Below, one piece after another: positions 13,924-31,012 of a stretch of 31,278 nucleotides of DNA (position 1 is the first letter of the stretch; the number at the start of each line of letters is the position of its first letter). A program made the position numbers and the translations under genes. The DNA comes from a virus: positions 1-31,278 of IMG/VR virus record IMGVR_UViG_3300042894_004973. The stretch is one strand, 5' to 3'. The notes beneath the pieces are model-generated. The model saw only the letters and a program-made list of their open reading frames with translations. It searched no databases and was not told the DNA's origin.

Positions 13924-13969
13924 AACTTAATTTAAATATAACTAAATTTTTTATGTTTTCAAAACTTTT

Positions 13970-14917
13970 TTATAAAGTACAGACTATATAACTATATTCT
14001 TCTGTGCATGCTACTTCTGTTGGTCCGGTAATGCCCCCAAATGCAAGAGCTGCATTTTGTGTACCTGCCCCTGCTAATGCATATCTAGCAGTACTTAAAG
14101 CACAACCTGCTGTCCAAGTAGATCCATTATACTCTTCTGTACAAGTATATCCTTGTCCACCAAAAGCAAGTCCGGCGTTTTGTGTTCCTGCTCCTGCTAA
14201 AGCAAATCTAGCAGTAATCAAAGCACCGCCTGCTGACCAAGCAGATCCATTGTATTCTTCTGTGCAAGAGACAATTGAAGCGTTATCTTCTCCTCCAAAA
14301 ACAAGCCCAGCGTTTTGTGTACCTGCTCCTGCTAAATATTTTCTAGCGGTAATTAACGCGCTTCCTGCTGACCATGATGATCCATCATATTCTTCTGTAC
14401 ATGCTCCATATGGGCTGTCTCCTCCAACAGCTAAAGCGGCATTTTGTGTTCCTGCTCCTGCTAAGTAATATCTACCAGTAATTAAAGCACCTCCTGCTGA
14501 CCATGATGATCCATCATATTCTTCTGTACATCTAAGTACATACGGTGAGTAAAAACCTCCAAAAGCAAGTCCGGCGTTTTGTGTTCCTGCTCCTGCTAAT
14601 CCATGTCGAGCACTAGCTAAAGCACCACCCGCTGTCCAAGAAGTTCCATCATATTCTTCTGTACAAGATACACTGTTGACAGGGGGGAGTGCCCTCCCTC
14701 CAAAAGCAAGACCTGCGTTTTGTGTACCTGCTCCTGCTAATTCGAACCTAGCGTAAATCATAGCGCCACCCGTTGACCAAGCTTGCGGTCCGGTATATTT
14801 AACTCTCCCCTCATCTTCATCATACCACATACTGCCTTCAATCTCTGGTGTTGGTGTTTTACCAAGCACCAAAACTGCAGTACCTGAAAGTGTTAAATTA
14901 GGGCCGTTAATTAACAT
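13970..14917 (-). CDS. Single-propeller kelch-like adhesin/fibre protein A
   Basis: A 315-aa protein. Residues 1-46 form an N-terminal module (NLTLSGTAVLVLG then IEGSMWYDEDEGRVKYTG) also present in the next two genes. Residues 47-308 are six kelch-like units with the pattern W-S-x-G-G-A-L-I-T-x-R-x-x-LAGAGTQNAGLAFGG-loop-CTEEYxGS. The last unit ends in a short SYIVCTL tail instead of a chaperone domain. The N-terminal W and C-terminal EEY could close the ring as one blade. No signal peptide or membrane helix is seen. A virion surface or receptor-binding role is inferred from the company it keeps. Confidence 0.75.
   Translation of the reverse strand: MLINGPNLTLSGTAVLVLGKTPTPEIEGSMWYDEDEGRVKYTGPQAWSTGGAMIYARFELAGAGTQNAGLAFGGRALPPVNSVSCTEEYDGTSWTAGGALASARHGLAGAGTQNAGLAFGGFYSPYVLRCTEEYDGSSWSAGGALITGRYYLAGAGTQNAALAVGGDSPYGACTEEYDGSSWSAGSALITARKYLAGAGTQNAGLVFGGEDNASIVSCTEEYNGSAWSAGGALITARFALAGAGTQNAGLAFGGQGYTCTEEYNGSTWTAGCALSTARYALAGAGTQNAALAFGGITGPTEVACTEEYSYIVCTL
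13994..14779 (-). repeat. Six kelch-like units (propeller 1)
   Basis: Six tandem units of about 41-47 codons. All six carry the cysteine of CTEEY. Loop lengths between FGG and C vary from 3 to 11 residues. Confidence 0.8.
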
Positions 14918-14942
14918 GTTGTATTGTTGATGTTTTTATTGT

Positions 14943-15893
14943 TTATTCTGGGATTGTACATATTGATATTCCGTTGTATTCTTCTGTGCATGATGCTCCA
15001 GATGGACTCCCTCCAAAAGCAAGTCCGCTAGCTTGTGTTCCTGCTCCTGCTAATTGTTGTCTACCAGTAATCAAAGCACCGCCTGTCGACCATACAGTTC
15101 CGTTATATTCTTCCGTGCAGGCATATCCCGGTGATCCGCCAAATGCAAGACCTGCATTTTGGCTTCCTGCACCTGCTAATTTAGTAACACCGTTAATCAG
15201 TGCACCGCCTGTAGCCCATGCTGATCCGTCATATTCTTCTGTACAAGTATATCCTTGTCCACCAAAAGAAAGAGCTGCATTTTGTGTTCCTGCTCCTGCT
15301 GACGACTCTCTACCGAATATTAAAGCACCGCCTGCTAACCACGAAGTTCCGTTATATTCTTCTGTGCACGATACATATGAAGTACCTCCAGAGGCTAATG
15401 CTGCGTTTTGAGTTCCCGCTCCCGCTAATTGAGATGTACCATTAATTAAAGCGCCGCCGGCTGACCAAGAAGATCCATTATATTCTTCTGTGCATGTTCC
15501 TACATTAATTGAAGGATTATTTCCCCCAAAAGCAAGGCCTGCGTTTTGGATTCCTGCTCCACCTACTCCAAATCTACACGTAATTAAATTACCGCCTGCT
15601 GCCCACGATGTTCCGTTATATTCTTCTGTATTTCTTAAAGGATTAGGTCCACCATCCCCTCCTCCAAATACTAAACCTGCATTTTGTGTGCCTGCCCCTC
15701 CTGCTCCTTCTGTCCTACAGGTAATCAATGCACCGCCTGCCGACCATGTACTATTCCCTGATCCAAATGTAAACTGTATTTTTCCTAATGTAGGATTAAA
15801 CCACATATTACCAGCAGTAGTTGTATTCGATACTGTATTAAGTATCAGTACTGCCGATCCTGTAATGACTAAATTTGAATTATCTATGTTCAT
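14943..15893 (-). CDS. Single-propeller kelch-like adhesin/fibre protein B
   Basis: A 316-aa paralogue of the neighbouring 315- and 319-aa proteins. The N-terminal module (NLVITGSAVLILN, GNMWFNPTLGKIQFT) covers residues 7-45; residues 50-306 are six kelch-like units; the tail is ICTIPE. It is the most diverged of the three: unit 1 has CRTEGAGGAG and RNTEEY without the usual cysteine, and units 3 and 5 lack the Arg after the GGALIN. It lacks the S74 chaperone domain of the larger adhesins. The three genes are spaced 25 and 35 nt apart and probably arose by tandem duplication. Receptor-binding or decoration of the virion is inferred. Confidence 0.75.
   Translation of the reverse strand: MNIDNSNLVITGSAVLILNTVSNTTTAGNMWFNPTLGKIQFTFGSGNSTWSAGGALITCRTEGAGGAGTQNAGLVFGGGDGGPNPLRNTEEYNGTSWAAGGNLITCRFGVGGAGIQNAGLAFGGNNPSINVGTCTEEYNGSSWSAGGALINGTSQLAGAGTQNAALASGGTSYVSCTEEYNGTSWLAGGALIFGRESSAGAGTQNAALSFGGQGYTCTEEYDGSAWATGGALINGVTKLAGAGSQNAGLAFGGSPGYACTEEYNGTVWSTGGALITGRQQLAGAGTQASGLAFGGSPSGASCTEEYNGISICTIPE
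14976..15746 (-). repeat. Six kelch-like units (propeller 2)
   Basis: Six tandem units. Five of six carry the CTEEY cysteine; the first reads NTEEY. Confidence 0.8.
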
Positions 15894-15919
15894 TGATATG
15901 TGGTGTTGTCCTTTCTATT

Positions 15920-15927
15920 ATAAATAT
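15920..15927. promoter_or_regulatory. AT-rich octamer upstream of adhesin B gene
   Basis: Plus strand ATAAATAT (TATAAATA at 15919-15926), 26 nt before the start, in a 35-nt gap. Confidence 0.35.
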
Positions 15928-15928
15928 T

Positions 15929-16888
15929 TTAGAAGCAGCATATGACTGGTACTGTATTGTATTCTTCTGTGCATGCTACATTTGGATCTCCTCCAAAAGC
16001 AAGAGCTTTAGCAAATGTACCTGCGCCTGCTAAACTACCTCTACCGGTAATTAATGCGCCGCCTGCTAACCATGATATACCATTGTATTCCTCTGTACAA
16101 GCCTCATTTGGAGTTGTACCTCCAAAGGCTAAACCTGCATTTTGTGTCCCTGCACCAGCTAGTGTTCTCCTGCCAATAATCATAGCGCCGCCTGCCGACC
16201 AATTAGTTCCGTTATATTCTTCTGTACATGATAGTATAGGTCCGTTCTGTCCGCCAAATGCAAGACCAGCATTTTGTGTACCTACTCCTGCTAGAATACA
16301 TCGGGCATTAATCATTGCTCCACCGGCCGACCAATTAGATCCGTCATACTCTTCCGTACAGGATACGTTACTACTAACCGGAGTTCCGGCATATCCTCCA
16401 AAAGCAAGCCCCGCATTTTGTGTTCCTGCTCCTGCTAAATTAAATCTAGCTGTAATTAAAGTAGTACCTGTCGACCAGGCTGTTCCGTTATATTCTTCAG
16501 TACAAGCTACTATAGTTGGTATACCACCTCCGAAAGCGAGACCAGCATTTTGAGTACCTGCTCCAGCTAAAAGATATCTAGCGGTAATTAAAGCTCCGCC
16601 TGCTGCCCAAGATGATCCATTATACTCTTCTGTACAAGATACTACTGTTGGAGTACTACCCCCGAATGCGAGGGCTGAGTTTTGAGTACCTGCTCCGGCG
16701 AGCCCGTTTCTAGCAGTGATTAAAGCACCGCCTGCCGCCCATGCTCCATTACCAAGCCCGGTATACTGTACTTTCTGTAATAATTTATTATACCATATAG
16801 CGCCCTCTATAGCAGTATCGTCTGCTCTTCCAAGTGTTAAAACCGCTTGGCCTGATATAACTAGGTTAGGAGGTCCGCAAACTTTCAT
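15929..16888 (-). CDS. Single-propeller kelch-like adhesin/fibre protein C
   Basis: A 319-aa protein with the shared N-terminal module (NLVISGQAVLTLG, IEGAIWYNKLLQKVQYTG) and six kelch-like units over residues 50-310, ending VPVICCF. It shares a 48-nt identical tract in unit 3 with the distant 1074-aa gene, showing sequence exchange. It lacks the S74 domain. It follows the glycosyltransferase gene by 33 nt, placing the modification genes directly upstream of the adhesin trio. The role is inferred as a receptor-binding or decoration protein; the N-terminal module could be the virion attachment part. Confidence 0.75.
   Translation of the reverse strand: MKVCGPPNLVISGQAVLTLGRADDTAIEGAIWYNKLLQKVQYTGLGNGAWAAGGALITARNGLAGAGTQNSALAFGGSTPTVVSCTEEYNGSSWAAGGALITARYLLAGAGTQNAGLAFGGGIPTIVACTEEYNGTAWSTGTTLITARFNLAGAGTQNAGLAFGGYAGTPVSSNVSCTEEYDGSNWSAGGAMINARCILAGVGTQNAGLAFGGQNGPILSCTEEYNGTNWSAGGAMIIGRRTLAGAGTQNAGLAFGGTTPNEACTEEYNGISWLAGGALITGRGSLAGAGTFAKALAFGGDPNVACTEEYNTVPVICCF
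15959..16741 (-). repeat. Six kelch-like units (propeller 3)
   Basis: Six tandem units, all with the CTEEY cysteine. Unit 6 has GTFAKALAFGG in place of GTQNAGLAFGG. Confidence 0.8.
16375..16422. repeat. 48-bp exchange tract shared with 29745-29792
   Basis: Identical over 48 bp between the 319-aa and 1074-aa adhesin genes, including the normally hypervariable loop (FGGYAGTPV). The flanks differ at several positions, as expected from a short recombination tract. Confidence 0.7.
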
Positions 16889-16906
16889 ACTACGTCACAT
16901 TTGATA

Positions 16907-16914
16907 ATAAATAT
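16907..16914. promoter_or_regulatory. AT-rich octamer upstream of adhesin C gene
   Basis: Plus strand ATAAATAT (AATAAATA at 16906-16913), 18 nt before the start, in a 33-nt gap. Confidence 0.35.
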
Positions 16915-16921
16915 ATTAGAA

Positions 16922-17845
16922 TCAAATGTTATTGAGTATTTCGTCAATATTAAACATGTCTGTTAACTCCATGTAAGGACATTCGTGTAGATTATTTTCA
17001 AATTGAAAATCAAAGAGATACGATCCTATGAGCTGATTTGCTTTCTTGGGTAGGTTTGCAACTACATTTTTATGTAATCTATATCCGAATACTGTCGGCG
17101 AAGTTCCTACCCATAGTACTGTCGATGGAAGTTTGAATGCGGCAGCAGCATGCTGTAGACAAGAATCGATTAGAACGCGTTTCTGTGCATCAACTAGTAT
17201 TGCAAATAACTCAATATTGGATAGCTGTTGGTCTATTCTCTCTACCCCGTCTAGGTGATATCCGTCGGGTCTAGTTACTTGAAATATGTGGTATTGATTT
17301 CTGAATTTATTTACAATTGCCTGGGCTATATCTTGAGGCATATCGCGGGTCCAGGAGTAATTATACTTTTGACCTTGGCCCGGTCCTCCCCCTGTTTGAA
17401 TAACTATTGTTGGTTTTTGTCTTTTCCAAAGACCGACTAATTGTCTTTGTACGTAGTTTGCAAATACTTGGGGCTGTTGTTCAGTATATTTTATACCCAG
17501 TAGATCGCACCAGTTTTCAATCAAATGCTTTGTTTTAGTAATATGTCCTGTTTGATTGTAGGGTTCGTGTCTACAGACAATGATATCTTTCTCGTAGATA
17601 TAGTCTTCATAGAAGTAGGGTGCTTGTGTTAAATTGTATACCCTATCGATATAAGGGTTATTTAGAAATGCTTCTGGATAGGATACTACCATTATCAGCT
17701 TTCTGTCAGGAAAAGCTTCTTTTATATCTTTACATAGAGAGGTTGCTGCAATATTTTTACCTAATCCTCCCTGTATATGCCAGATAAAAAATTTATCTCC
17801 AATATTCCTGTTTGAGTGGTATATGTATCCTTGTTCTTGTTTCAT
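16922..17845 (-). CDS. GT9-like glycosyltransferase
   Basis: A 307-aa protein. Residues 24-48 (WHIQGGLGKNIAATSLCKDI) are the glycine-rich opening of GT9/heptosyltransferase-type enzymes, which have a GT-B fold. The second half has LSNIELFAILVDAQKRVLID then SCLQHAAAAFKLPSTVLWVG, the usual sugar-nucleotide side signature for the family. Members move a heptose or other sugar onto LPS or glycans. The acceptor here is unknown; virion protein or host surface are both open. Its start overlaps by one base (TAATG) the stop of the preceding oxygenase gene, so it is part of that operon. Confidence 0.7.
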   Translation of the reverse strand: MKQEQGYIYHSNRNIGDKFFIWHIQGGLGKNIAATSLCKDIKEAFPDRKLIMVVSYPEAFLNNPYIDRVYNLTQAPYFYEDYIYEKDIIVCRHEPYNQTGHITKTKHLIENWCDLLGIKYTEQQPQVFANYVQRQLVGLWKRQKPTIVIQTGGGPGQGQKYNYSWTRDMPQDIAQAIVNKFRNQYHIFQVTRPDGYHLDGVERIDQQLSNIELFAILVDAQKRVLIDSCLQHAAAAFKLPSTVLWVGTSPTVFGYRLHKNVVANLPKKANQLIGSYLFDFQFENNLHECPYMELTDMFNIDEILNNI

Positions 17846-18492
17846 TAAAATATTAATTCAGTTAAGTTCTCTTCCTCTCCAAATCCTACTTTAGGTACTA
17901 CGTTGAATGCTAAACTGCATCTAGGTTTATCAGTCTTATTGACCGGTACCGAATGCATGAGATGAGAAGGGAATAGTATTAACAGGCCTGGTTCAAATGT
18001 TATAGCGAATTCCTGCTGTGCATACCTTAAGTCTTTTTTATCTTTTACTAGCTTTGGGGAAATATAAGATGCATTAACACCGCCTGCTGTTCTATGAAAC
18101 TTGATAGCCGATGTTTTTTCAGCTGCATGTCCGTAATAGAGTACTCCTGAGAGTAGACTATTTGGGTGAGTATGTGCAGTATGGTGCTGTCCTGGGGCTT
18201 TTATAGAGACCCAAGATTGTCCGAATCTATATTCATTATAGGCGTATCCTAGCTTCTCGGCATACACCTTCACGTTACCTAAGATAAATTCAGCTAATGT
18301 CGCACATTCAGGTTTATCTAACAAATAGCTATCCTTAGATCTGAACCCGTAGTTATCATGATCGGAATCGGTACCCATGTCTTGACCATCGAAGAACTTA
18401 ATTACCTTTGCATACTGCACGGGCAGCGTGGTAGCGTAAACCGGGGTTGGGAACAACTCCAGTATTTCATAATTAATTTGCATAACGTCCAA
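17845..18492 (-). CDS. 2OG-Fe(II) oxygenase-like protein (2OG-FeII_Oxy_5 type) 1
   Basis: A 215-aa protein. The start FPTPVYATTL and the core GQSWVSIKAPGQHHTAHTHP then NSLLSGVLYY are typical of the putative 2OG-Fe(II) oxygenase family TIGR02466/PF13759. Candidate iron ligands are His107 and His109 and distal His180 (SHLMHSV); Arg191 could bind 2-oxoglutarate. It is a clear paralogue of the adjacent 219-aa protein. The ATG at 18490-18492 overlaps the preceding stop by 20 nt; an internal ATG three codons on is an alternative start. Substrate is unknown; protein, nucleotide or lipid hydroxylation is possible. Confidence 0.75.
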   Translation of the reverse strand: MDVMQINYEILELFPTPVYATTLPVQYAKVIKFFDGQDMGTDSDHDNYGFRSKDSYLLDKPECATLAEFILGNVKVYAEKLGYAYNEYRFGQSWVSIKAPGQHHTAHTHPNSLLSGVLYYGHAAEKTSAIKFHRTAGGVNASYISPKLVKDKKDLRYAQQEFAITFEPGLLILFPSHLMHSVPVNKTDKPRCSLAFNVVPKVGFGEEENLTELIF

Positions 18493-19132
18493 ATATTATT
18501 TCAGAAATGGTTTCTTTATCGCCCAGTGTTCCTTTCGTTAATACGTTTACACCTAATGCTTTCCTGACTTTATTTGTTCTATTGGGAGGTACACCATGTG
18601 TAACGTATGAAGGAAATATAATGAAATTATTTTGTTGCGGTGTAAAATAAATTTCCTCCTGAGAGAATTTATGCTGCTGATAATCGTCCTGTAGAGAGGG
18701 TTCTAAATAAGTTCTATACTGAGATCCAGCTACTTTACTAAAGCAAATAGCTGCATCCCCGGGTTCAAAATCGTAATAAAATACGCCGGCAAGTAGAGTG
18801 TTTGGGTGAGTATGTGCTTTGTGAAATTGACCGGGCATTTTATAGGTAAGCCACGATTGAGAAAACTGCAATTCCTTATAGCGATACCTCATTACGTTAG
18901 TGGCAAAGTCATTAAAGCATTGCATGAAAAAATTAGCCAGCGGTTTACAGATTGGATGATCAATTATATAGCTATTTTTTGATATCCAACCATAAGGGCT
19001 ATTTTTTCCATCGTTCATTTCGCAACTATCGAAGTACTTAACTATTTCAGTTGTATCTCCCGGGTATGTTGCTACATACAGCGGAGTTGGAAACATTTCA
19101 AAAACTTTAGCACTACTCCCTGCTATATTCAT
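18473..19132 (-). CDS. 2OG-Fe(II) oxygenase-like protein (2OG-FeII_Oxy_5 type) 2
   Basis: A 219-aa protein with FPTPLYVATY near the start, SQSWLTYKMPGQFHKAHTHP then NTLLAGVFYY in the core and FPSYVTHGVPPNRTNKVR near the end. Candidate ligands are His107, His109 and His179, with Arg190 for 2-oxoglutarate. The core aligns closely with the downstream 215-aa protein, so the pair look like a tandem duplication that has since diverged. Spacing to the preceding gene is 4 nt. No signal peptide. Confidence 0.75.
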   Translation of the reverse strand: MNIAGSSAKVFEMFPTPLYVATYPGDTTEIVKYFDSCEMNDGKNSPYGWISKNSYIIDHPICKPLANFFMQCFNDFATNVMRYRYKELQFSQSWLTYKMPGQFHKAHTHPNTLLAGVFYYDFEPGDAAICFSKVAGSQYRTYLEPSLQDDYQQHKFSQEEIYFTPQQNNFIIFPSYVTHGVPPNRTNKVRKALGVNVLTKGTLGDKETISEIIFGRYAN

Positions 19133-19136
19133 AACC

Positions 19137-19742: not shown

Positions 19743-19756
19743 AACTAAGTTTTTAA

Positions 19757-20368: not shown

Positions 20369-20374
20369 AACAAT

Positions 20375-20962: not shown

Positions 20963-20970
20963 AACTAAGT

Positions 20971-21684
20971 TTACTGTTGTTGCTGGCTTTCAACATGCTG
21001 GGCAAGCTGCTGTTGACGAGCCTGTTCAAATGTCAAAAGTGTATTACCTTCGGCCTTGAGTCTTTGCAGGGTTTGATAAGGACCTACAGCGTTAATAACT
21101 TCACTCGGTTCACTATTTGGACTGAGAGCCTTTACTCTATTTTCAAGCCTTAGTCCTAAGCTTTCGGCCTGATGTGTATTTACCTCTCTATCGTCGAAGG
21201 TTCCATCGTTGAGTTCGGCTTTAATCTTAGACCAAGTCTGGATCTCACGAACACGGTCGTGGGCTACCTGTTCCATGCAGGCTTTATTGTAGAGATTTTG
21301 ATCTAAATCGATCTGTGCCTCTATAATATCGAGCATATCACCTTTAAGTTCTGCTTCTTTCATTTTACGTTCGAGTCTGAGCCTTTCTACATCGGCTCTT
21401 CTCATTTCAAATGAAAGATTCATCATCGCATCAAAGTGCGCAGACATTTCCCTAACCGACTGCCAGTATTTAGATGCCGGAGTGGGATGCTTGGCATCAT
21501 TCAAGACCGATACACGCATTTCCGTTTCAGTACGGAAAATTTGTTTTTTATTCCAGTTATCGGCCAGTTCTTCTTTTAATCTTACAACTTCCCTAGCGTC
21601 TTCCGGTTTCAAAACCGCTAGAATATTCTGTAAATCACTAGGAATTGCTAGTTCGCGACCTGATTCTTGTTTATTTTCGTCCAT
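20971..21684 (-). CDS. Coiled-coil protein of unknown function
   Basis: A 237-aa protein, almost entirely charged helix: residues 30-55 and 85-160 are Glu/Arg/Lys/Leu-rich with heptad-like spacing (MRRADVERLRLERKMKEAEL), and the C-terminus is Gln-rich. The segment FRTETEMRVSVLNDAKHPTP then ASKYWQSVREMSAHF is one I recall from uncharacterised phage proteins of marine origin. The protein may be structural or scaffold-like; nothing in it suggests an enzyme. It lies between a fibre-linked small protein and the oxygenase operon. Confidence 0.65.
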   Translation of the reverse strand: MDENKQESGRELAIPSDLQNILAVLKPEDAREVVRLKEELADNWNKKQIFRTETEMRVSVLNDAKHPTPASKYWQSVREMSAHFDAMMNLSFEMRRADVERLRLERKMKEAELKGDMLDIIEAQIDLDQNLYNKACMEQVAHDRVREIQTWSKIKAELNDGTFDDREVNTHQAESLGLRLENRVKALSPNSEPSEVINAVGPYQTLQRLKAEGNTLLTFEQARQQQLAQHVESQQQQ

Positions 21685-21741
21685 AACGAAGTTTGTATTT
21701 ACTATTAATGTAACAAATATTATTCAATCTTCCAACTCTTT

Positions 21742-22017
21742 TTAGGGAAGAATGATATTTTGAGGTTCAGGGCCACAGAGCCATGGTGTTGAACCGGAAA
21801 CGCAAGTTTGCCATTCTGTCTGAGTCTGATCAACTACGGCATCAACGAGAGCTTGTGCTTCTGCTTTAGTCTTTTCTACAGCTCCTACCCGGGTTGCCCA
21901 GATTTGATTGTTTTCCGTTACCCATACGTTTGCGGGATATCCGGCAATGTGGGATCTTTGGTTATCTTCGTGGGTGATGAATCCTACCCCCGTGTTAACT
22001 GCTACGTAATACTGCAT
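21742..22017 (-). CDS. Small fibre-associated protein, possible assembly chaperone
   Basis: A 91-aa protein with a beta N-terminus and a conserved-looking block NQIWATRVGAVEKTKAEAQA followed by a helix. A similar DQIWVARL block and Glu/Ala helix is in the 57-aa protein at 31014-31187. Both genes lie directly after a fibre-type gene in transcription order, the place taken by fibre assembly chaperones in many phages. That function is an inference; no family is recognised. Cys77 and Cys86 near the C-terminus (VSGSTPWLCGPE) are odd and unexplained. Confidence 0.6.
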   Translation of the reverse strand: MQYYVAVNTGVGFITHEDNQRSHIAGYPANVWVTENNQIWATRVGAVEKTKAEAQALVDAVVDQTQTEWQTCVSGSTPWLCGPEPQNIILP

Positions 22018-22041
22018 GTTTTTTAGTTTTAAGGTTTATTA

Positions 22042-22049
22042 ATAAATAT
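22042..22049. promoter_or_regulatory. AT-rich octamer upstream of the 91-aa gene
   Basis: Plus strand ATAAATAT (AATAAATA at 22041-22048), 24 nt before the start, in the 31-nt gap after the 802-aa gene (its last base is shared with that gene's stop). Confidence 0.35.
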
Positions 22050-24457
22050 TACTTGTTCTTAAATTTATTGATTTTTGCCGTAAGATCGGCAATTTGCTGC
22101 TGCTGTTCTTGGATGGCTTTAATAAGCGGAGCTATAATTTTTGAATAGCTCATACCCTCTACCTCGCCTGCTTCATCCTTACTTACTATTTCAGGATAAA
22201 CATTGGCTACCTCTTCGGCAATCAATCCTATGTCATGTTTGCGGTTGGTTTTCCAATCAAATTCAACAGGTTTGAGTTGGTTAATTTTATCAAGCTGTGA
22301 TGTTAATTCTTTGATATCATCTTTGTAGCGCTGGGCTGATGTTTCAATAAGGCATGATACTGTTGTGATGCCGTTTTCGGCACAGTAATCGAAAGATAGT
22401 AGAGGGCCTATTCCACCTGTGTATTCTTCCGTGCAGGCTAAATATGCCCCGTAAAACCCTCCAAAAGCAAGTCCAGCATTTTGTGTTCCTGCTCCAGCTA
22501 ATGCATATCTGGAATTATTTAGAGTACCGCCTGTTGACCACGTTGATCCGTTATATTCTTCCGTACAGGCACCGTATCCGCTACTGCCTCCAAAGGCTAA
22601 AGCAGCATTTTGTGTGCCTGCTCCTGCTAAACATTTTCTACCAATAATCATAGCACCGCCTGCTGTCCATGAAGTTCCGTTATATTCTTCTGTACAAGCT
22701 CCTGCAGATCCTCCAAATGCTAAAGCTGCGTTTTGTATACCTGCTCCCGCTAAGCTATCTCTACCAGCGATTAAAGCACCACCAGCAGACCAAGAGGTTC
22801 CGTTATATTCTTCTGTGCATGCGCCTGGTCCATAGTTTCCGCCAAATGCTAATCCGGCATTTTGTGTACCTGCTCCTGCTAAATACTCTCCACCTGAAAT
22901 TAAAGCACCGCCTGCTGTCCAAGTGGCGCCATCATATTCCTCTGTACAGGTATTTGGGGACGGCCTTCCTCCAAAAGCTAAAGCTGCATTTTGTGTTCCT
23001 GCTCCTGCTAAACGGAATTGAGCGTTTATCATTGCTCCACCGTTTGACCATGAAGATCCATCATACTCCTCTGTACAATTATAAGTAGGATAACCGCCAA
23101 AAGCAAGACCTGCATTTTGAGTACCTGCTCCTGCTAAAAAATGTCTAGCAGTGATCATAGCACCGCCTGCCGACCACGATCCTCCTGGCCCTACACCAGA
23201 TGTATAATAACAAAATTGAACATTACTTATTGTTTTTATAGAACCTGATATCTCTAGTGTATCATCTACAAATGTAGTTCTGATAGATGTATTGCCTGTT
23301 GTGTTGGAGAAGTTGAAGGTTTGGGGGTTGGGGTTTGAGCCAGCATATTCTTCTGTGCATGATTGCCCCGGATTTCCTCCAAAAGCAAGTCCTGCATTTT
23401 GTGTACCTGCTCCTGCTAAAAATGCTCTACCAGTAATTAAAGCACCGCCTGTAGACCATGAAGATCCATCATATTCCTCTGTACAGGTAACTGAAGGAGT
23501 GCCTCCAAATCCTAAAGCAGCATTTTGTGTACCTGCTCCGGCTAGAGCATACCTAGAGCTAATCAATGCTCCTCCTACCGACCAAGAAGTACCGTTATAT
23601 TCTTCAGTACATGCTACTGTTGTTGGGTTGGTAGTTATTCCACCAAATGCTAAGCCTGAATTTTGTGTTCCTGCTCCTGCTAAACCTTGTCTAGCAGTAA
23701 TTAAAGCACCGCCTGCCGACCAAGTCGATCCATCGTACTCTTCAGTACATGCTCTTGATGTTGGGGTGGTAGTTATTCCACCAAATGCTAAGCCTGAATT
23801 TTGTGTTCCTGCTCCTGCTAAATACAATCTAGCTGTAATTAAAGCTCCACCAGTTGACCAGGACGATCCATTATATTCTTCTGTACATGATATAGGATTA
23901 TATCCATCGCTACCTCCAAATGCTAAGCCGGCATTTTGTGTTCCTACTCCTGCTAAGAGATATCTAGCAACACTCAAAGCTCCGCCTGTAAACCAGCTTG
24001 ACCCGTTATATTCTTCAGTACATGTACAAACATATGTTACAATACCTCCAAATGCTAAGCCTGAATTTTGTGTACCTGCTCCTGCTAAACTTTCTCTAGC
24101 AGTAATTAAAGCACCACCAGCACTCCACCCGGCTACTATATTATATCCAAATCCTACACTTCCTGTTACACCTAATGATCCGCTAACTTGAGCCGATCCT
24201 GTAAAAGGGAATACGGGCGGTAGGTTTATATAAGATGCTGTAAGGGCATATGAAGATGTTCCAAATAGAGATCCTGTTGCTGATATATTACCTGTTGAAT
24301 TTGAATAGAGGAAAGTTTGTGTAGTACCTCCACCTGTATGATAATTAAATCCTACACTTCCAGTAACACCTAGTGATCCGGTCGCTCTGAAGGATCCTGA
24401 AACCCTAGAGTTGTCTGGAGAAATTAAACCGTTCCTGGCTACAAATTCGTTTGACAT
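22049..24457 (-). CDS. Two-propeller adhesin with S74 chaperone domain
   Basis: An 802-aa protein. Residues 1-40 (MSNEFVARNGLIS, then GSLGVTGSVGF) are shared with the two larger adhesins. Spacer A (TQTFLYSNSTGNISATGSLF) at about 46-65 precedes propeller units 111-371, spacer B (TFNFSNTTGNTSIRTTFVDD), a second set of six units, and spacer C (GITTVSCLIETSAQRYKDDI). From about residue 707 is a peptidase S74 domain with HDIGLIAEEVANVYPEIV and a Gln-rich C-terminal helix (IQEQQQQI). S74 domains help trimer folding and cut themselves off at a conserved Ser (here the S of SAQRYKDD). Relative to its two neighbours it lacks the first propeller. Confidence 0.85.
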   Translation of the reverse strand: MSNEFVARNGLISPDNSRVSGSFRATGSLGVTGSVGFNYHTGGGTTQTFLYSNSTGNISATGSLFGTSSYALTASYINLPPVFPFTGSAQVSGSLGVTGSVGFGYNIVAGWSAGGALITARESLAGAGTQNSGLAFGGIVTYVCTCTEEYNGSSWFTGGALSVARYLLAGVGTQNAGLAFGGSDGYNPISCTEEYNGSSWSTGGALITARLYLAGAGTQNSGLAFGGITTTPTSRACTEEYDGSTWSAGGALITARQGLAGAGTQNSGLAFGGITTNPTTVACTEEYNGTSWSVGGALISSRYALAGAGTQNAALGFGGTPSVTCTEEYDGSSWSTGGALITGRAFLAGAGTQNAGLAFGGNPGQSCTEEYAGSNPNPQTFNFSNTTGNTSIRTTFVDDTLEISGSIKTISNVQFCYYTSGVGPGGSWSAGGAMITARHFLAGAGTQNAGLAFGGYPTYNCTEEYDGSSWSNGGAMINAQFRLAGAGTQNAALAFGGRPSPNTCTEEYDGATWTAGGALISGGEYLAGAGTQNAGLAFGGNYGPGACTEEYNGTSWSAGGALIAGRDSLAGAGIQNAALAFGGSAGACTEEYNGTSWTAGGAMIIGRKCLAGAGTQNAALAFGGSSGYGACTEEYNGSTWSTGGTLNNSRYALAGAGTQNAGLAFGGFYGAYLACTEEYTGGIGPLLSFDYCAENGITTVSCLIETSAQRYKDDIKELTSQLDKINQLKPVEFDWKTNRKHDIGLIAEEVANVYPEIVSKDEAGEVEGMSYSKIIAPLIKAIQEQQQQIADLTAKINKFKNK
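22421..23176 (-). repeat. Six kelch-like units (propeller 5)
   Basis: Second propeller of the 802-aa protein; six units, all with the CTEEY cysteine. Confidence 0.8.
23629..23684. repeat. 56-bp tandem duplication within propeller 4, copy 1
   Basis: Identical to 23767-23822, offset by 138 bp, which is exactly one 46-codon unit. It covers part of the variable loop and the FGG strand, so it marks recent unit duplication or conversion. Confidence 0.7.
23767..23822. repeat. 56-bp tandem duplication within propeller 4, copy 2
   Basis: Second copy of the 56-bp tract at 23629-23684. Confidence 0.7.
23832..23945. repeat. 114-bp exchange tract shared with 27180-27293
   Basis: 113 of 114 bp match between the 802-aa and 1089-aa genes; the single difference (23904 against 27252) changes Gly to Val inside the variable loop. 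The tract is shorter than one unit (about 135 bp). Confidence 0.8.
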
Positions 24458-24460
24458 AGT

Positions 24461-27400
24461 CTATTCTTGGGGCGGTGTTTTATATAAATATTTTTGATCT
24501 TCTAAATCGCTAGCTTCCTTAGTTAACACAGCAATTTGTTGTTGCTGCTCTTGAATAGCTTTAATTAGGGCGGCTACCATTTTAGAGTAACTAATACCTG
24601 TTATTTTACCCTCTTCGTCTCTACTTACTACCTCGGGATAAATTTCGGCTACCTCTTCGGCAATCAGACCAATATCTGGTTTGCGGCTTGTTTTCCAAAC
24701 AAACTCTACTGGTTTAAGTTGATTAATCTTATCAAGCTGGTTTGTTAATTCTTTAACGTTGTCTTTATAACGATGGGCTGAAGTTTCTACTAGACATGAT
24801 ACTGTTGTTATACCGGTATTAGATGAGTAGTCGAATGATTTTACTATAGCGGCCGTACCGTTGTATTCTTCTGTGCATGCTACAACTGTTGGGGATGTAC
24901 CGCCAAATGCTAAAGCAGAGTGTTGTACACCAGCACTTGCTAAGCTGTCTCTACCAGTGATTAAAGCACCTCCTGCCAACCATGAAGATCCATCATACTC
25001 TTCTGTACAAGCACGAACTGTAGGTGATGCATATCCTCCAAGAGCAAGAGCTGTATTTTGAGTACCTGTCCCTGCTAATCGAGTTCTACCAGTAATTATA
25101 GCACCGCCTGTTGACCAGCTAGCTCCATCATATTCTTCTGTGCAAGCTCCATTTGGATTGTTTCCACCAAAAGCTATAGCTGCATTTTGAATACCTGCTC
25201 CAGCTAGACTAAATCTAGAAGTAATCATATTACCTCCCGCTGACCAAGCAGATCCATCATATTCTTCTGTACATGTTGGGTTTCCAAATGCTAAACCAGC
25301 ATTTTGAGTACCAGCGCCTGCTAAATCACCTCTAGCAGTAATTAATGCTCCACCAGCTGACCAAGATGATCCATTATACTCTTCTGTGCAAGCTACAACA
25401 GCATTAATACATCCTCCAAATGCTAAACCAGCATTTTGAGTACCAGCGCCTGCTAAAATACTTCTTCCGCTAATCATCGCTCCGCCTGCTGCCCATGAAG
25501 ATCCATCATATTCTTCAGAACATGCTACTTTAGTTGGTGTTGCTCCACCAAAAGCAAGACCTGCATTCTGTGTACCTGCCCCTGCTAAAGAAGTTCTAGC
25601 AGTAATCAAAGCACCGCCTGCTGACCATACACCTGCCCCTCCATCTGATGAATTAAAACAAAATTCGATATCGCTTATTGCTTTTACAGAGCCTGTTACT
25701 GCTAACGTCTCTGTCACTCTAGCCGATCTAATAGCTGTATTACCTGTTGAAGTTGAATAGTTAAATGCTTGGATAAGACCAGGGGCACCGCTATATTCTT
25801 CTGTACAGGCATAACCTGTAGCACCAGCTGGGCTTGCACCACCAAAAGCTAAAGCTTCATTCTGTGTTCCTGCTCCTTCAAGGGCATATCTAGCCTGTAT
25901 TAAAGCACCGCCTGTAGCCCAAGTTGATCCATTATATGCTTCTGTACAGCTAACTAACGTTGGTGTTGATCCTCCAAAAACGAGGCCTGAGTTTTGAAAG
26001 CCGGCTCCTGCTGATTGATCTCTAGCTGTAATTAATGCACCACCTGCTGCCCATACTGTTCCGTTGTATTCTTCTGTACATGCAGTAGCGGATGGAGTTG
26101 TATTACCTCCAGATGCTAAACTAGCATTTTGTATTCCAGATGCCGCTGAACCGAATCTAGCAGTTATCAAACCACTAGCTACTGCCCATGCTGTACCATC
26201 ATATTCTTCTGTACATGAACAAGCTGTATATGTTGGAGCAGCTCCTGAACCCCCAACAGCTAAAGCTGCATTTTGAGTTCCAACTCCCGGTGAATACCAT
26301 CTAGTAGCTATCATAGCACCGCCTGTTGCCCATGTTGCTCCATCGTATTCTTCAGTACAAGTGACAATAGCTGTATTAGTAGGTGGGTTTGTTGCTCCTG
26401 AAAATCCTAAAGCTGCATTTTGCGTACCTGTACCTCCTAAACCAAACCTACCTGTTATCATTGCATTGCTTGCCGCCCATGATGTTCCATTGTATTCCTC
26501 AGTACAGTTACGCATTGAAGGAGGTGCGTATCCGTTAAAAACGAGAGCACTGTTTTGAACTCCAGCTCCGCCCGATAGATACCTGCCTGTAATCATAGCC
26601 CCGCCTGCAGTCCATCCGGCAGTTGAATTGTATGAAAATCCAACACTACCTGTCACACCTAGGGATCCTGTGATTCTAGCTGAACCGGTAAATGGAAATG
26701 CTACAGGTGCATTTAAAGCATTTGATGCTGTAAGGGCAAATGATGCTGTACCAAATAGAGAGCCTGTTGCCGATATACAGCCCGTTGTATTTGAGTAAAG
26801 GAAGGTTTGTAGTGGACTGTATTCTTCTGTACATGATAAAGTATAATACTGATCTCTTCCTCCAAAAGCAAGACCTGCATTTTGAGTACCGGCTCCTGCT
26901 AGTGTTCGTCTACCATTAATTAAAGCACCGCCTGTTGACCATGAGGTACCATTATATTCTTCTGTGCATGCTTCATTTGGGTTGCCACCTCCAAATGCAA
27001 GACCAGAGTTTTGTGTACCAGCTCCCGCTAAGCTATACCTAGCTGTTAATAGAGCACCTCCTGCTGACCATGAAGATCCGTTATATTCTTCTGTGCAGGC
27101 TACTATAGCTGGGGCTGGAGTAAGTCCTCCAAACGCTAGTCCAGCATTTTGAGTGCCTGCTCCTGCTAAAGTTGCTCTGGCTGTAATTAAAGCTCCACCA
27201 GTTGACCAGGACGATCCATTATATTCTTCTGTACATGATATAGGATTATATACATCGCTACCTCCAAATGCTAAGCCGGCATTTTGTGTTCCTGCTCCAG
27301 CTAAAGTGTTTCTAGTAGTGATTAAGGGATTTCCGGCTGACCAAGATATACCATTGTATTCTTCTGTACAAGCTACTATTGCTATAATTCGTCCACCAAA

Positions 27401-27730
27401 AGCTAGAGCTTCATTTTGTGTTCCTACTCCTGCTAACTGTCTCACAGTGTTAATCATTGCTCCGCCTGCTGTCCATGAGGTACCGTTGTAGGCTTCTGTA
27501 CATGCTACACTAACCGGTGTACCACCTCCAAATGCAAGTCCGGCATTTTGTGTTCCTGCTCCAGCTAATTGATATCTAGCTGTTGATAGAGCACCTCCTG
27601 TTGACCAAACTTTATAAGCAAACCCAACACTACCCGTCACCTCCAATGATCCAGTCACTTGGAACGAGCCTGTCACCTGAGAATTATCTCGAGATATTAA
27701 TCCATTCCTAGCTATAAACTCGTTTGGCAT
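24461..27730 (-). CDS. Three-propeller adhesin with S74 chaperone domain (1089 aa)
   Basis: N-terminal module MPNEFIARNGLIS with GSLEVTGSVGFAY at 27-40, then propeller 1 (42-304), spacer A (TFLYSNTTGCISATGSLF), propeller 2 (373-646), spacer B (FNYSTSTGNTAIRSARVTET), propeller 3 (702-956), spacer C (GITTVSCLVETSAHRYKDNV) and an S74 domain from about residue 983 with PDIGLIAEEVAEIYPEVV. Eighteen kelch-like units in all, each with the cysteine. Propeller 2 is more diverged than the others (ASNAMITGRFGLGGTG, AVASGLITARFG). A tail fibre or spike with several receptor-binding heads is inferred; the S74 domain argues for a folded trimer that sheds its chaperone. Confidence 0.85.
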   Translation of the reverse strand: MPNEFIARNGLISRDNSQVTGSFQVTGSLEVTGSVGFAYKVWSTGGALSTARYQLAGAGTQNAGLAFGGGTPVSVACTEAYNGTSWTAGGAMINTVRQLAGVGTQNEALAFGGRIIAIVACTEEYNGISWSAGNPLITTRNTLAGAGTQNAGLAFGGSDVYNPISCTEEYNGSSWSTGGALITARATLAGAGTQNAGLAFGGLTPAPAIVACTEEYNGSSWSAGGALLTARYSLAGAGTQNSGLAFGGGNPNEACTEEYNGTSWSTGGALINGRRTLAGAGTQNAGLAFGGRDQYYTLSCTEEYSPLQTFLYSNTTGCISATGSLFGTASFALTASNALNAPVAFPFTGSARITGSLGVTGSVGFSYNSTAGWTAGGAMITGRYLSGGAGVQNSALVFNGYAPPSMRNCTEEYNGTSWAASNAMITGRFGLGGTGTQNAALGFSGATNPPTNTAIVTCTEEYDGATWATGGAMIATRWYSPGVGTQNAALAVGGSGAAPTYTACSCTEEYDGTAWAVASGLITARFGSAASGIQNASLASGGNTTPSATACTEEYNGTVWAAGGALITARDQSAGAGFQNSGLVFGGSTPTLVSCTEAYNGSTWATGGALIQARYALEGAGTQNEALAFGGASPAGATGYACTEEYSGAPGLIQAFNYSTSTGNTAIRSARVTETLAVTGSVKAISDIEFCFNSSDGGAGVWSAGGALITARTSLAGAGTQNAGLAFGGATPTKVACSEEYDGSSWAAGGAMISGRSILAGAGTQNAGLAFGGCINAVVACTEEYNGSSWSAGGALITARGDLAGAGTQNAGLAFGNPTCTEEYDGSAWSAGGNMITSRFSLAGAGIQNAAIAFGGNNPNGACTEEYDGASWSTGGAIITGRTRLAGTGTQNTALALGGYASPTVRACTEEYDGSSWLAGGALITGRDSLASAGVQHSALAFGGTSPTVVACTEEYNGTAAIVKSFDYSSNTGITTVSCLVETSAHRYKDNVKELTNQLDKINQLKPVEFVWKTSRKPDIGLIAEEVAEIYPEVVSRDEEGKITGISYSKMVAALIKAIQEQQQQIAVLTKEASDLEDQKYLYKTPPQE
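24484..24491. promoter_or_regulatory. AT-rich octamer upstream of the 802-aa gene
   Basis: Plus strand ATAAATAT (TATAAATA at 24483-24490), 26 nt before the 802-aa gene start but inside the last codons of the 1089-aa gene. Confidence 0.3.
24863..25627 (-). repeat. Six kelch-like units (propeller 8)
   Basis: Third propeller of the 1089-aa protein; six units, all with the cysteine. Unit 3 has the shortest loop, reading FGNPTCTEEY. Confidence 0.8.
25793..26614 (-). repeat. Six kelch-like units (propeller 7)
   Basis: Second propeller of the 1089-aa protein; six diverged units, all with the cysteine. It has several long variable loops (GATNPPTNTAIVT in unit 2). Confidence 0.75.
26819..27607 (-). 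repeat. Six kelch-like units (propeller 6)
   Basis: First propeller of the 1089-aa protein; six units, all with the cysteine. It is the propeller that has no counterpart in the 802-aa protein. Confidence 0.8.
27180..27293. repeat. 114-bp exchange tract shared with 23832-23945
   Basis: Partner of the tract in the 802-aa gene. In the 1089-aa gene it lies in propeller 6 units 3-4, while in the 802-aa gene it lies in propeller 4 units 2-3, so the exchange joined non-equivalent positions. Confidence 0.8.
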
Positions 27731-27738
27731 GTATTAAA

Positions 27739-30700
27739 TTAATTTGACAGGTTATCTATTTTTTTAGCTAAATTAGAGAGCTGTTGTTGTTGTTCTTGGA
27801 TGGCTTTAATAAGGGCGGCCACCATCTTAGAATAACTAATTCCTTCCACTTCTCCAACCTCGTTTTTCTTCACTATTTCAGGATATACTTTGGCTACATC
27901 CTCGGCTATGAATCCAATATCGTGTTTGCGACTTGTTTTCCAATCAAATTCAACCGGTTTGAGTTGATTGATTTTATTGAGTTGGGAGGTTAGTTCTTGT
28001 ATATTGTCTTTATAGCGTTTGGCCGATGTCTCTATTAAACAGGATACTGTTGTGATACCTGTATCTACTGAATAATCAAATGTTTTTTCTACGGCTTGGG
28101 CGCCTGTGTATTCTTCTGTGCAAGAAAAAATACTACTATAAGCACCTCCAAAAGCGAGAGCTAGTTTTTGTGTCCCTGCTCCTCCTAAGGCGACTCTAGC
28201 TGTTATCAAAGCGCCTCCTGTTGACCAAGAGGTTCCATTATATTCTTCTGTACATACTCCTGGGAAGCCCCCGCCGATAGCAAGACCAGCATTTTGAGTA
28301 CCTACTCCTGCTAGATTTTCTCTAGCATTAATTAAAGCACCTCCAGCCGACCATGATGCACCGTCGTATTCTTCTGTACAACTTAAACAGTTTGAGTTAT
28401 CAAATCCACCAATTGCTAAAGCAGCATTTTGTGCGCCAGCTCCTGCTAAGTAATATCTAGCGGTACTTAAAGCACCTCCAGCCGACCATGATGCACCGTC
28501 GTATTCTTCTGTACAAGTAGTTAAACCTACATTACTATATCCGCCAATAGCAAGGCCTGTATTTTGAGTACCTGCACCTGCTAAACGATATCTAGAAGTA
28601 CCTAGAGCACCACCTGTTATCCAGCTTGATCCGTTATATTCTTCTGTACAAGATAAAATAGTAGGTGTATTACCTCCGAAAGCTAGGGCTGAATTTTGTA
28701 TACCTGCGCCTGCTAACTGAAGTCTAGCAGTAATTAGAGCGCCGCCTGCTGACCATGATGATCCGTTGTATTCTTCTGTACAAGATAAAATAGTGAAAGT
28801 CGGTGCTACACCTTGACCTCCAAATGCTAATCCAGATTCTTGAGTTCCTGCTCCTGCTAAAGCTGTTCTAGCAGTAATCATCGCCCCGCCTGCCGTCCAC
28901 GTAGCAGGTCCTGCATTAGGTGCAAAATAACAAAATTCAACATTACCTGTTGTTAAAAAAGATCCTGTTACCTCGGCATCTCTTTGCATGAGAGCTCTCG
29001 ATATTGTTGTATCACCTGTTGTTTCGGAGTAGGTAAAGGTGATTGGACTGCCGTTGTATTCTTCTGTACAAGCAACTATTATAGGTGACGCATATCCTCC
29101 AAATGCTAATCCTGCATTTTGAGTACCGGCACCAGCTAATCTCTGTCTTCCACTAATCATTGTCCCGCCTGCCGACCAAACTGATCCGTTGTATTTTTCT
29201 GTACAAGTATATCCTCCTGATCCACCAAATGCAAGTCCTGCATTTTGTGTTCCTGCTCCTGCTAGTTCAAATCTACCAGTAATCAAAGCACCGCCCACTG
29301 ACCAGGAAATACCGTTATACTCTTCAGTACAAGTTTGAGGTCCATAGCTTCCACCAATAGCAAGAGCTGCATTTTGGGTTCCTGCTCCAGCTAGCTGTTG
29401 TACGAGATTAATTAAAGCGCCGCCTACTGACCAAGACGATCCATCATATTCTTCTGTACAATTTGATATACCATTGACTGGATTACCGGCATAGCCTCCA
29501 ATAGCAAGACTTGCATTTTGTGATCCTGCTCCCGCCAGAAGACTTTTAGCGATAATTAAAGCACCGCCTGTAGACCATGAAGCACCATTGTATTCTTCTG
29601 TACAAGTATATCCTCCTAATCCACCAAATGCAAGTCCTGCATTTTGTGTTCCTGCTCCTGCTAGGTTTTGTCTTTCACATATTAAAGGACCGCCTGTAGT
29701 CCAAGTTGATCCATCATACTCTTCCGTACAGGATATATTACTGTTAACCGGAGTTCCGGCATATCCTCCAAAAGCAAGCCCCGCATTTTGTGATCCTGCT
29801 CCAGCAAGAGATTGCCTACTGTTAATCAACGCACCTCCCACACTCCATCCTGCTGCTGTAAATGAAAATGCTACACTACCTGTCACTCCTAGTGATCCAG
29901 TGATTCTACCATCTCCAACAAATGGAAATCCATAAGTACCGTCAAGATAGGAGGCTGTAATAGCAAATGAGGCTGTTCCGAATAGTGAGCCTGTAGCCGA
30001 TGTATTGCCTGTTGTGCCTGAGTAGAGGAAGGTTTGAGTTACAATTGTTGGGCCTAGATACTCTTCTGTACAAGCTAAAAATCCTCCTCCATAACCTCCA
30101 AATGCTAATGCACAAGCTTGCTCACCAGCACTACCTGGCTGTATTCTTGCACGAATCATTGCTGATCGAGCAGACCATATAGATCCGTCATATGCTTCAG
30201 TACAAGTAAACCTGTTAGGGGCAGCTGGACCGCCTCCAAAAGCTATAGCAGAAGTATCGCTAGCCCCCTTTCCTCCTGAGCGTTCTCTACCGTTTATAAG
30301 GGTACCTCCTGTTGCCCAAGAGGTTCCGTTATATTCTTCTGTTGTTGCTACACCTCCTTGTCCACCAAATCCTAAAGCAGAGTTTTGAGTACCTGCTCCT
30401 GCTAATTGCTGCCTTCCAGTAATCATTGCACCACCTGACGACCAGGCACTTCCATTATATTCTTCTGTAGAAATTGAAAATGCTAGAGCAGCGTTTTGAC
30501 TACCTGCTCCTGCTAAAAATGTTCTAGCTTGAATTAAATTACCTCCTGTTGACCAAGAGGTTCCGTTATATGCTTGAGTATTATTGGTATTTCCAAGTAC
30601 ATTTGTTCCTCCAAATACTAAAGCAGCATTTTGTATTCCTGCCCCACCACCATTTTGTTTTCTATCAATTAAAGCAGGTCCTGTTGCCCATGTGTTACCA

Positions 30701-30963
30701 TTGTAAGATTCTACACAAGTAAGTCCAAGTCCTGGTGTATAACCGCCTGCTGCTAAAGCTGCATTTTGTGTTCCAATTCCAATAGGTGCGTTTCTACCTG
30801 TAATTAAAGCACCACCAGCACTCCATCCTTCTGGTCCACCTGCTAGGTAAGCAAACCCGGCGCTACCGGTAAGGCCTATCGATCCTAGGATCTGGGTCGA
30901 TCCCGACATTGCGGAACTGTCCTGGGCAATAAAGCCATTTCTGGTTATGAATTCGTTTGACAT
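27739..30963 (-). CDS. Three-propeller adhesin with S74 chaperone domain (1074 aa)
   Basis: Same plan as the 1089-aa protein: N-terminal module (MSNEFITRNGFIAQDSS, GSIGLTGSAGFAY), propeller 1 (47-302), spacer A (TQTFLYSGTTGNTSATGSLF), propeller 2, spacer B (TFTYSETTGDTTISRALMQR), propeller 3, spacer C (GITTVSCLIETSAKRYKDNI) and S74 from about residue 980 with HDIGFIAEDVAKVYPEIV. Eighteen units; three units of propeller 1 lack the cysteine (NTQAY, STEEY, TTEEY) and that propeller is the most diverged in the window. It is probably the first-transcribed of the three giant adhesins. A receptor-binding tail fibre is inferred. Confidence 0.85.
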   Translation of the reverse strand: MSNEFITRNGFIAQDSSAMSGSTQILGSIGLTGSAGFAYLAGGPEGWSAGGALITGRNAPIGIGTQNAALAAGGYTPGLGLTCVESYNGNTWATGPALIDRKQNGGGAGIQNAALVFGGTNVLGNTNNTQAYNGTSWSTGGNLIQARTFLAGAGSQNAALAFSISTEEYNGSAWSSGGAMITGRQQLAGAGTQNSALGFGGQGGVATTEEYNGTSWATGGTLINGRERSGGKGASDTSAIAFGGGPAAPNRFTCTEAYDGSIWSARSAMIRARIQPGSAGEQACALAFGGYGGGFLACTEEYLGPTIVTQTFLYSGTTGNTSATGSLFGTASFAITASYLDGTYGFPFVGDGRITGSLGVTGSVAFSFTAAGWSVGGALINSRQSLAGAGSQNAGLAFGGYAGTPVNSNISCTEEYDGSTWTTGGPLICERQNLAGAGTQNAGLAFGGLGGYTCTEEYNGASWSTGGALIIAKSLLAGAGSQNASLAIGGYAGNPVNGISNCTEEYDGSSWSVGGALINLVQQLAGAGTQNAALAIGGSYGPQTCTEEYNGISWSVGGALITGRFELAGAGTQNAGLAFGGSGGYTCTEKYNGSVWSAGGTMISGRQRLAGAGTQNAGLAFGGYASPIIVACTEEYNGSPITFTYSETTGDTTISRALMQRDAEVTGSFLTTGNVEFCYFAPNAGPATWTAGGAMITARTALAGAGTQESGLAFGGQGVAPTFTILSCTEEYNGSSWSAGGALITARLQLAGAGIQNSALAFGGNTPTILSCTEEYNGSSWITGGALGTSRYRLAGAGTQNTGLAIGGYSNVGLTTCTEEYDGASWSAGGALSTARYYLAGAGAQNAALAIGGFDNSNCLSCTEEYDGASWSAGGALINARENLAGVGTQNAGLAIGGGFPGVCTEEYNGTSWSTGGALITARVALGGAGTQKLALAFGGAYSSIFSCTEEYTGAQAVEKTFDYSVDTGITTVSCLIETSAKRYKDNIQELTSQLNKINQLKPVEFDWKTSRKHDIGFIAEDVAKVYPEIVKKNEVGEVEGISYSKMVAALIKAIQEQQQQLSNLAKKIDNLSN
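28108..28899 (-). repeat. Six kelch-like units (propeller 11)
   Basis: Third propeller of the 1074-aa protein; six units, all with the cysteine. Confidence 0.8.
29056..29847 (-). repeat. Six kelch-like units (propeller 10)
   Basis: Second propeller of the 1074-aa protein; six units, all with the cysteine. Unit 5 ends CTEKY. Confidence 0.8.
29745..29792. repeat. 48-bp exchange tract shared with 16375-16422
   Basis: Partner of the tract in the 319-aa gene, about 13 kb away. It lies in unit 1 of propeller 10, whereas in the 319-aa gene it lies in unit 3. Confidence 0.7.
30058..30825 (-). repeat. Six kelch-like units (propeller 9)
   Basis: First propeller of the 1074-aa protein; six diverged units, three with the cysteine. 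Confidence 0.75.
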
Positions 30964-31004
30964 AATCTAAATCTCGGTTCACTATCCCCGAAATAGAGTT
31001 CTAT

Positions 31005-31012
31005 ATAAATAG
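31005..31012. promoter_or_regulatory. AT-rich octamer upstream of the 1074-aa gene
   Basis: Plus strand ATAAATAG (TATAAATA at 31004-31011), 41 nt before the start, in the 50-nt gap. The coding strand reads CTATTTATATAG. Confidence 0.3.

Follow-up and report, generated by a model that had tools for sequence, protein, structure and literature searches.

Phage fibres that end in an S74 chaperone domain usually carry beta-helices as their binding domains. Kelch-domain proteins are already known in phages: according to the consulted sections of the two sources, phage vB_PcaM_CBB encodes the kelch-domain proteins CBB_550, CBB_552 and CBB_554, of which CBB_552 is in the mature phage, kelch proteins also occur in other giant phages, including Pseudomonas jumbo phages (PMC5259590), and P-HM2 has a kelch protein as well (PMC3037559). 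Propellers are further reported, in the accessible parts of the respective texts, as a seven-bladed propeller of the SU10 tail nozzle (PMC9509320) and as a domain of a Brevibacillus protein (PMC10743442). In the sections consulted on CBB and P-HM2, tandem propellers within an S74 stem are not described (PMC5259590, PMC3037559), and in the literature searched, mostly outside subscription journals, we found no description of a multi-propeller, stem-inserted kelch form. It is this form that appears to be new here; the remark of a preliminary description of this DNA, that propeller adhesins are poorly described, needs correcting in so far as kelch proteins as such are on record in phages.

Here we analyzed an IMG/VR record of an uncultured virus of bacteria over its full 31,278 bases, referred to below as the window, together with its relatives. 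On the evidence set out below, we consider it probable that its six repeat genes encode adhesive tail-fibre propellers that combine a conserved scaffold with one variable face.

Eleven six-unit blocks and their predicted fold

Six genes of the window (g1–g6, Table 1) encode tandem kelch-like units, counted by a unit HMM as 6, 6, 6, 12, 18 and 18, that is, 66 units in 11 blocks, with scores of 26–68 bits per unit across all 66. The same numbers had been given in the preliminary description, and a crude regular expression built on the W returned them too, save for one g5 unit, which it overlooked but which reading the sequence plainly reveals. Each of the 11 blocks, 252–274 aa in length, starts at a W and finishes at EEY, as had also been described. 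In an unselected count within the blocks, W came first in 66/66 units, GG was present in 62/66 (it is absent, among others, from the third unit of g6 block 1 and the third unit of g5 block 3) and EEY came last in 59/66; in the relatives, counted likewise without selection, W came first in 1654 and GG occurred in 1531 of 1698 units. All six repeat proteins match phrog_27227, which the PHROGs annotation lists as 'unknown function', far beyond chance (E 2.7e-41 to 1.3e-137). Positions 20801-31278, with g4–g6 entire, are 100% identical in L006, a contig from another metagenome (L-numbers are labels of relative contigs or loci carrying the repeats), and 9932-22888 was likewise recovered identically in L001, L002 and L004. 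Assembly collapse of the repeats is therefore unlikely.

Table 1. Positions of the repeat genes, their propellers and stem features, and selected neighbouring genes in the window.
Feature	Coordinates	Strand	Details
Tail wedge gene	1621-1926		
Tail hub gene	6803-7567		
Tail tube gene	8239-8724		
Tail sheath gene	9508-11277		
g1 single-propeller protein	13970..14917	-	315 aa; six kelch units 13994-14779
g2 single-propeller protein	14943..15893	-	316 aa; six kelch units 14976-15746
g3 single-propeller protein	15929..16888	-	319 aa; six kelch units 15959-16741; modelled, pLDDT 92.1
orf20971	20971..21684	-	237 aa; no Pfam/PHROG match; relative on 86/128 relative viral contigs
orf21742	21742..22017	-	91 aa; no Pfam/PHROG match; relative on 82/128 relative viral contigs
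g4 fibre-like chain	22049..24457	-	802 aa; two propellers; S74 C-terminus
g4 S74 (chaperone of endosialidase) domain	22184..22339	-	SAQRYKDDI motif
g4 propeller, stem site 3	22421..23176	-	six units
g4 propeller, stem site 2	23345..24127	-	six units
g4 stem site 1, empty	24305..24364	-	TGSVGFNY-HTGGGTT-QTFLY; short loop; g5/g6 have propeller here
g5 fibre-like chain	24461..27730	-	1089 aa; three propellers; S74 C-terminus
g5 S74 domain	24626..24781	-	SAHRYKDNV motif
g5 propeller, stem site 3	24863..25627	-	
g5 propeller, stem site 2	25793..26614	-	diverged block
g5 propeller, stem site 1	26819..27607	-	
g6 fibre-like chain	27739..30963	-	1074 aa; three propellers; S74 C-terminus
g6 S74 domain	27868..28026	-	SAKRYKDNI motif
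g6 propeller, stem site 3	28108..28899	-	
g6 propeller, stem site 2	29056..29847	-	
g6 propeller, stem site 1	30058..30825	-	lowest unit scores among 11 blocks

The kelch homology, which had been proposed from the repeat pattern, was confirmed by a profile search and by the predicted fold. A profile built on an alignment of 110 rows (109 besides g3), in which 14 columns are invariant (11 G, 2 W and 1 Y), matched 83 PDB sequences at E ≤ 1, and among the best 60 of the 83 were SAKe6FR (8e-21, the best match), KLHL12 (5.7e-16) and, as the best Keap1 chain, one at 5.4e-13. With the same alignment, AlphaFold2 modelled g3 at a pLDDT of 92.1 (mostly 93–99 from residue 51 onward) and a pTM of 0.88, with approximately four strands per unit. 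Six-bladed kelch proteins came out on top when this model was compared with the PDB by Foldseek (SAKe6BE-L2, E 1.9e-16), the list also including Plasmodium kelch, KLHL17 and Keap1, and VIA-align superposed the model on SAKe6BE with a Z of 31.9 and an rmsd of 2.2 Å over 242 residues, and on Keap1 with a Z of about 31. The superposed part of the model was residues 45-291 against one chain and 70-314 against another, a shift that is as expected if the ring opened at another strand. These predictions support g3 as a six-bladed kelch propeller, with ring closure read from the superposition. A full-length g6 model, based on a 10-row alignment, reached a pLDDT of only 29.9 and was set aside; because g3 was the only protein modelled well, we rely on homology for ring closure in the g4–g6 blocks and for the trimer. 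Single sequences stayed below the Pfam Kelch_1 gathering cut-off of 20.1 bits, a practical threshold and not a structural feature: two of the six proteins scored 12.3 and 13.8 bits, the single-sequence scan gave no Kelch_1 match in the other four, and the genome search gave 17.4 bits.

Kelch and galactose-oxidase propellers had both been put forward for comparison; six-bladed kelch domains, of the Keap1/KLHL type and designed, matched best; galactose oxidase is a seven-bladed propeller. Propeller folds often carry enzymes, and some BFVD matches are labelled galactose oxidase, from which a glycan-cleaving or oxidising function of the propellers might be read. We regard such a function as very improbable, since the six-bladed kelch domains that head the PDB matches are not enzymes and the conserved polar residues R11, Q20 and EE recur in every blade, like a scaffold rather than one active site.

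Fibre-like chains, single-propeller genes and their neighbours

Once the propellers are excised, the stems that are left of g4, g5 and g6, 291–300 residues long, can be aligned over their whole length. At three stem sites, a propeller takes the place of a short loop between a G-F-x-Y-like and an F-x-Y/F-S/C-like strand, one of these sites being empty in g4. Peptidase_S74 (PF13884) is C-terminal in all three chains (49.5–55.8 bits against a cut-off of 22; E 5.4e-13 to 5.5e-15), their C-terminal part matches tail-fibre PHROGs, and the Ser and Lys of the S74 motif, the residues that serve self-cleavage in S74 domains, are present. Because the propellers are inserted in a shared stem ending in an S74 chaperone, g4–g6 can most probably be read as trimeric tail fibres belonging to a T4-like myovirus, and eight of the eleven propellers are likely to be mounted on tail fibres. 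These genes lie in a contractile-tail locus, the window also containing sheath, tube, hub and wedge genes. Upstream of g6, the relative contig L006 has a long fibre-like frame (2-2530) with TASFATTAS/TGSLFGTSSWAL repeats and no kelch units, which has the stem motif TGSLFGT in common with g4–g6.

The other three genes are built differently, as g1–g3 have a short N-terminal strand region before the propeller and stop right after it, and a Pfam scan found no S74 domain in them. It could be that the fibres comprise g4–g6 only, and that g1–g3 are non-virion proteins acting in the host or serving as a recombination stock for the fibre propellers. Besides the missing S74 domain, this would fit their situation among a sulfotransferase gene, an unmatched ORF and 2OG-oxygenase genes, as well as the exact DNA runs of 33–48 bp that connect g1–g3 mutually and with g5/g6. 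We lean against it, since rows of single-propeller genes recur among the relatives (three in L012, five in L097) and 152 of the 257 relative frames contain a single block of six units.

Around the repeat genes, orf20971 and orf21742 are candidate fibre assembly factors. Beside the propeller genes, at 11829-13923, lie DUF2061, cytidylyltransferase-like, APS-kinase-like and sulfotransferase genes; among the 128 relative viral contigs, some of which are one virus resampled, 56 carry a relative of the sulfotransferase, 22 one of the kinase and 18 one of the transferase. Possibly the virus encodes in these genes a sulfation pathway that would modify a surface molecule or a virion protein. Five consecutive 2OG-Fe(II) oxygenase genes occupy 17845-20962, each with relatives on 21–44 of the 128 contigs (paralogues cross-match), and T4-like cyanophages commonly have genes of this kind, according to the sections consulted of PMC3037559. 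The 307-aa ORF next to g3 (16922-17845), with relatives on 19 of these contigs, gave no match in Pfam and PHROG scans; it looks glycosyltransferase-like by eye, a likeness supported by no search. Literature searches, mostly outside subscription journals, found no paper joining sulfotransferase, 2OG-Fe, phage and tail fiber. As regards the host, the sheath matches Flavobacterium phages best (52.8%) and then a Microcystis phage (47.8%), and three of the 21 relative loci in cellular assemblies are labelled Flavobacteriaceae/Flavobacteriales, the remaining labels being archaeal, SAR324, Maricaulis, planctomycete and further ones, with four weak Belliella matches; to name Bacteroidota as the host group would be no more than guessing.

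Constant unit number, shuffled units and variable positions

Two viral scans and one genome scan yielded 257 distinct repeat-bearing frames at 123 loci, with only identical or contained repeat regions removed, so that near-duplicates are counted and the window is present via identical copies; at least 578 of the 597 candidate stretches listed from viral metagenomes were confirmed as family members. Six units were found in 342 of the 344 complete blocks, although the query itself had six units, which may bias the set towards similar relatives even though tblastn is local. Of the complete blocks, 301 were counted as six directly by script; eleven longer runs, nine with 12 units and two with 18, all showing a longer gap after every sixth unit, brought the running total to 325; and 29 odd script pieces represented 19 blocks, 17 of which had six units after joining pieces or counting weak units by eye, a matter of judgement. 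Excluded from the block count were 18 pieces cut by contig ends and all frames with fewer than three units or less than 70 bits in total, five of which had a unit of at least 15 bits (four cut by a contig end, and one, in L167, with six units by eye that was left uncounted).

The two exceptions are a three-unit block flanked by two six-unit blocks in L031 (5257-8334) and a five-unit gene within a row of single-propeller genes in L097 (6411-7251), which may be real or may reflect assembly collapse. The preliminary description had argued from the constant six for selection on a six-bladed propeller, and had named variable unit numbers in relatives as an observation that would speak against it; the relatives bear the argument out in all but these two blocks, and do so despite the shuffling of units. 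Beyond the three propellers per chain that it gave, chains of relatives carry four in L009 and L132 and up to five in L061, where the linkers between the five six-unit propellers of a 1,904-aa chain (3541-9276) measure only 9–10 residues.

Within the window, the nearest unit by DNA belonged to another gene for 51 of the 66 units; it stood at the equal blade index of another block for 13 (10.2 expected) and within its own block for 11 (5.1 expected). Exact DNA runs between units of different genes reached 48 bp (g3-g6), with a median longest run of 12. As far as these comparisons tell, units have moved between blocks while the count per block remained six, and the blocks are not copies of one frozen ancestral block. 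The number six could in principle be inherited rather than structural, in an open or solenoid-like array, and weak residual similarity speaks for this, with same-block similarity slightly raised (p 0.0005) and same-index similarity barely so (excess 0.0039, permutation p 0.014). Such an array is nevertheless scarcely conceivable given the confident superposition of the g3 model on propellers and the persistence of six units in nearly all relative blocks in spite of shuffling.

To locate variation within the unit, entropy was calculated from 1300 relative units, all of modal length and picked by the W...GG pattern, a selection that makes W1, G27 and G28 fully conserved by construction, for which reason these positions were not used. 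At unit positions 12 and 13 (ARxxLAG), entropy reached 3.62 bits and 3.76 bits, respectively, against 0.01 at G18, and the 1182 units that could be parsed showed 1157 different versions of the post-GG loop, 4–18 residues long. Over 17 block pairs that do not overlap, several of them from common groups of relatives, pN/pS was 1.12 at positions 12/13 (bootstrap 0.73-1.58) and 0.41 (0.34-0.51) at the other core positions without those forced by the pattern, or 0.32 with them. This suggests that the scaffold is held by purifying selection; since the interval for positions 12/13 includes 1, relaxed constraint is as good a reading there as diversifying selection, the two positions being either free or diversifying.

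The Keap1 residues that hydrogen-bond NRF2, and the blade ranges, are listed in the consulted part of PMC8161161. VIA pairs model residue 45 with Keap1 347, and an ungapped offset from there puts unit positions 12 and 13 at Keap1 363 and 364. By this arithmetic on published residue numbers, Keap1 G364, N414, R415, S508, S555 and S602 lie at +4/+5 from the blade start, which corresponds to unit position 12 or 13, while R380, N382, R483 and Q530 lie at +21 to +26, in the post-GG loop, and Y334 directly follows G333, by that count the last G of GG. The phage family thus varies, as far as residue arithmetic can place it, where Keap1 binds NRF2.

Fixed contacts within the virion would hardly be expected to show the high variability seen at ligand positions of the Keap1 type and in the loops, and we therefore consider it unlikely that the propellers are virion decorations or spacers, stiffening the stem or making intravirion contacts, with the receptor bound by another fibre. 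Such a fibre might be sought in the fibre-like, kelch-free repeat frame that L006 has immediately upstream of g6, and the kelch protein in the CBB virion is given no adhesin role in the consulted sections of PMC5259590, both of which would be in keeping with decoration.

Over 8,014 bp, the window differs from L003 at 18 positions, all in g1 (2) and g2 (16), and 16 of the 18 fall in two tracts. Intragenomic gene conversion was rejected as their source, the window holding no donor for either tract, and exchange with a related phage or chimeric assembly remains. Propeller genes as general short-term hot spots are not supported: in the 20 other near-identical rows (many redundant, one without a propeller), propeller changes did not exceed those outside in 19/19 informative cases.

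Proposed function and comparison with known systems

Returning to adhesive propellers, we propose that each six-unit block would fold as a six-bladed kelch propeller, the N-terminal W strand completing the last blade. The propellers of g4–g6 would be insertions in loops of the shared, S74-ended stem of trimeric tail fibres, and those of g1–g3 would stand alone. Two residues per blade (ARxxLAG) and the post-GG loop would vary on the face equivalent to the ligand-binding face of Keap1, a face whose most likely ligands are molecules of the host surface; a chain with several propellers would gain avidity or more than one specificity. The data show the unit counts, one predicted propeller fold, the sites of insertion, the S74 domain and the pattern of variability; ring closure in g4–g6, the trimer, self-cleavage, the location in the virion and receptor binding are what we infer. 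More tentatively, and with some doubt on our side, a large and almost uncultured phage group may use kelch propellers as an exchangeable binding scaffold, with fixed stem sites, free residues and a free loop, shuffled units, a number of six policed by ring closure, and many binding faces per virion. The propellers are a plausible host-binding device of a family with hundreds of members in viral metagenomes, and they offer a natural experiment in which blades are shuffled and diversified while their number is fixed; with the variable positions mapped, receptor binding is open to direct testing.

Like the propellers of Keap1, KLHL proteins and SAKe6, those of the phage are predicted to have a four-stranded blade per unit, with the GG doublet and the E-x-Y and W positions, six blades in all, and a junction blade built from both ends. 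They differ from these in having units of about 44 aa with Y-N/D-G-S-x-W joints and up to five propellers per chain, and in that the opening of the ring would lie at strand 4, with W coming first, while the Keap1 junction blade uses C-terminal residues 598-609 (PMC8161161, sections consulted); a Pfam scan found no BTB domain in the phage repeat proteins. Compared with other phages, the kelch fold matches entries of CBB, PhiPA3, Noxifer, PS119XW and BcepSaruman in BFVD at 12–22% identity, the two CBB entries, matched by fold only, at 12–14%. A tblastn search with g3 and a g5 block gave no match among 50,697 phage records, from which records very near the window were possibly excluded, and a diverged relative as query gave a single match of 28.9%, to a Paenibacillus phage. 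Low-complexity masking was rejected as the reason for the empty search, because both queries match relatives with the filter on; 13 residues are masked in g3, and the g5 block is left unmasked.

The fibres of extracellular contractile injection systems likewise present beta-propeller binding domains on tail-fibre-like shafts, but their propeller lectins come with collagen-like shafts and TNFR-like domains, as far as the consulted text goes, and the word 'kelch' is absent from its main text (PMC12923769). With the S74, or endosialidase-chaperone, fibres, g4–g6 share the C-terminal PF13884 domain, in which the S-x-x-R-Y-K motif is retained, and they differ from these fibres in that the presumed binding domains are kelch propellers instead of beta-helices.
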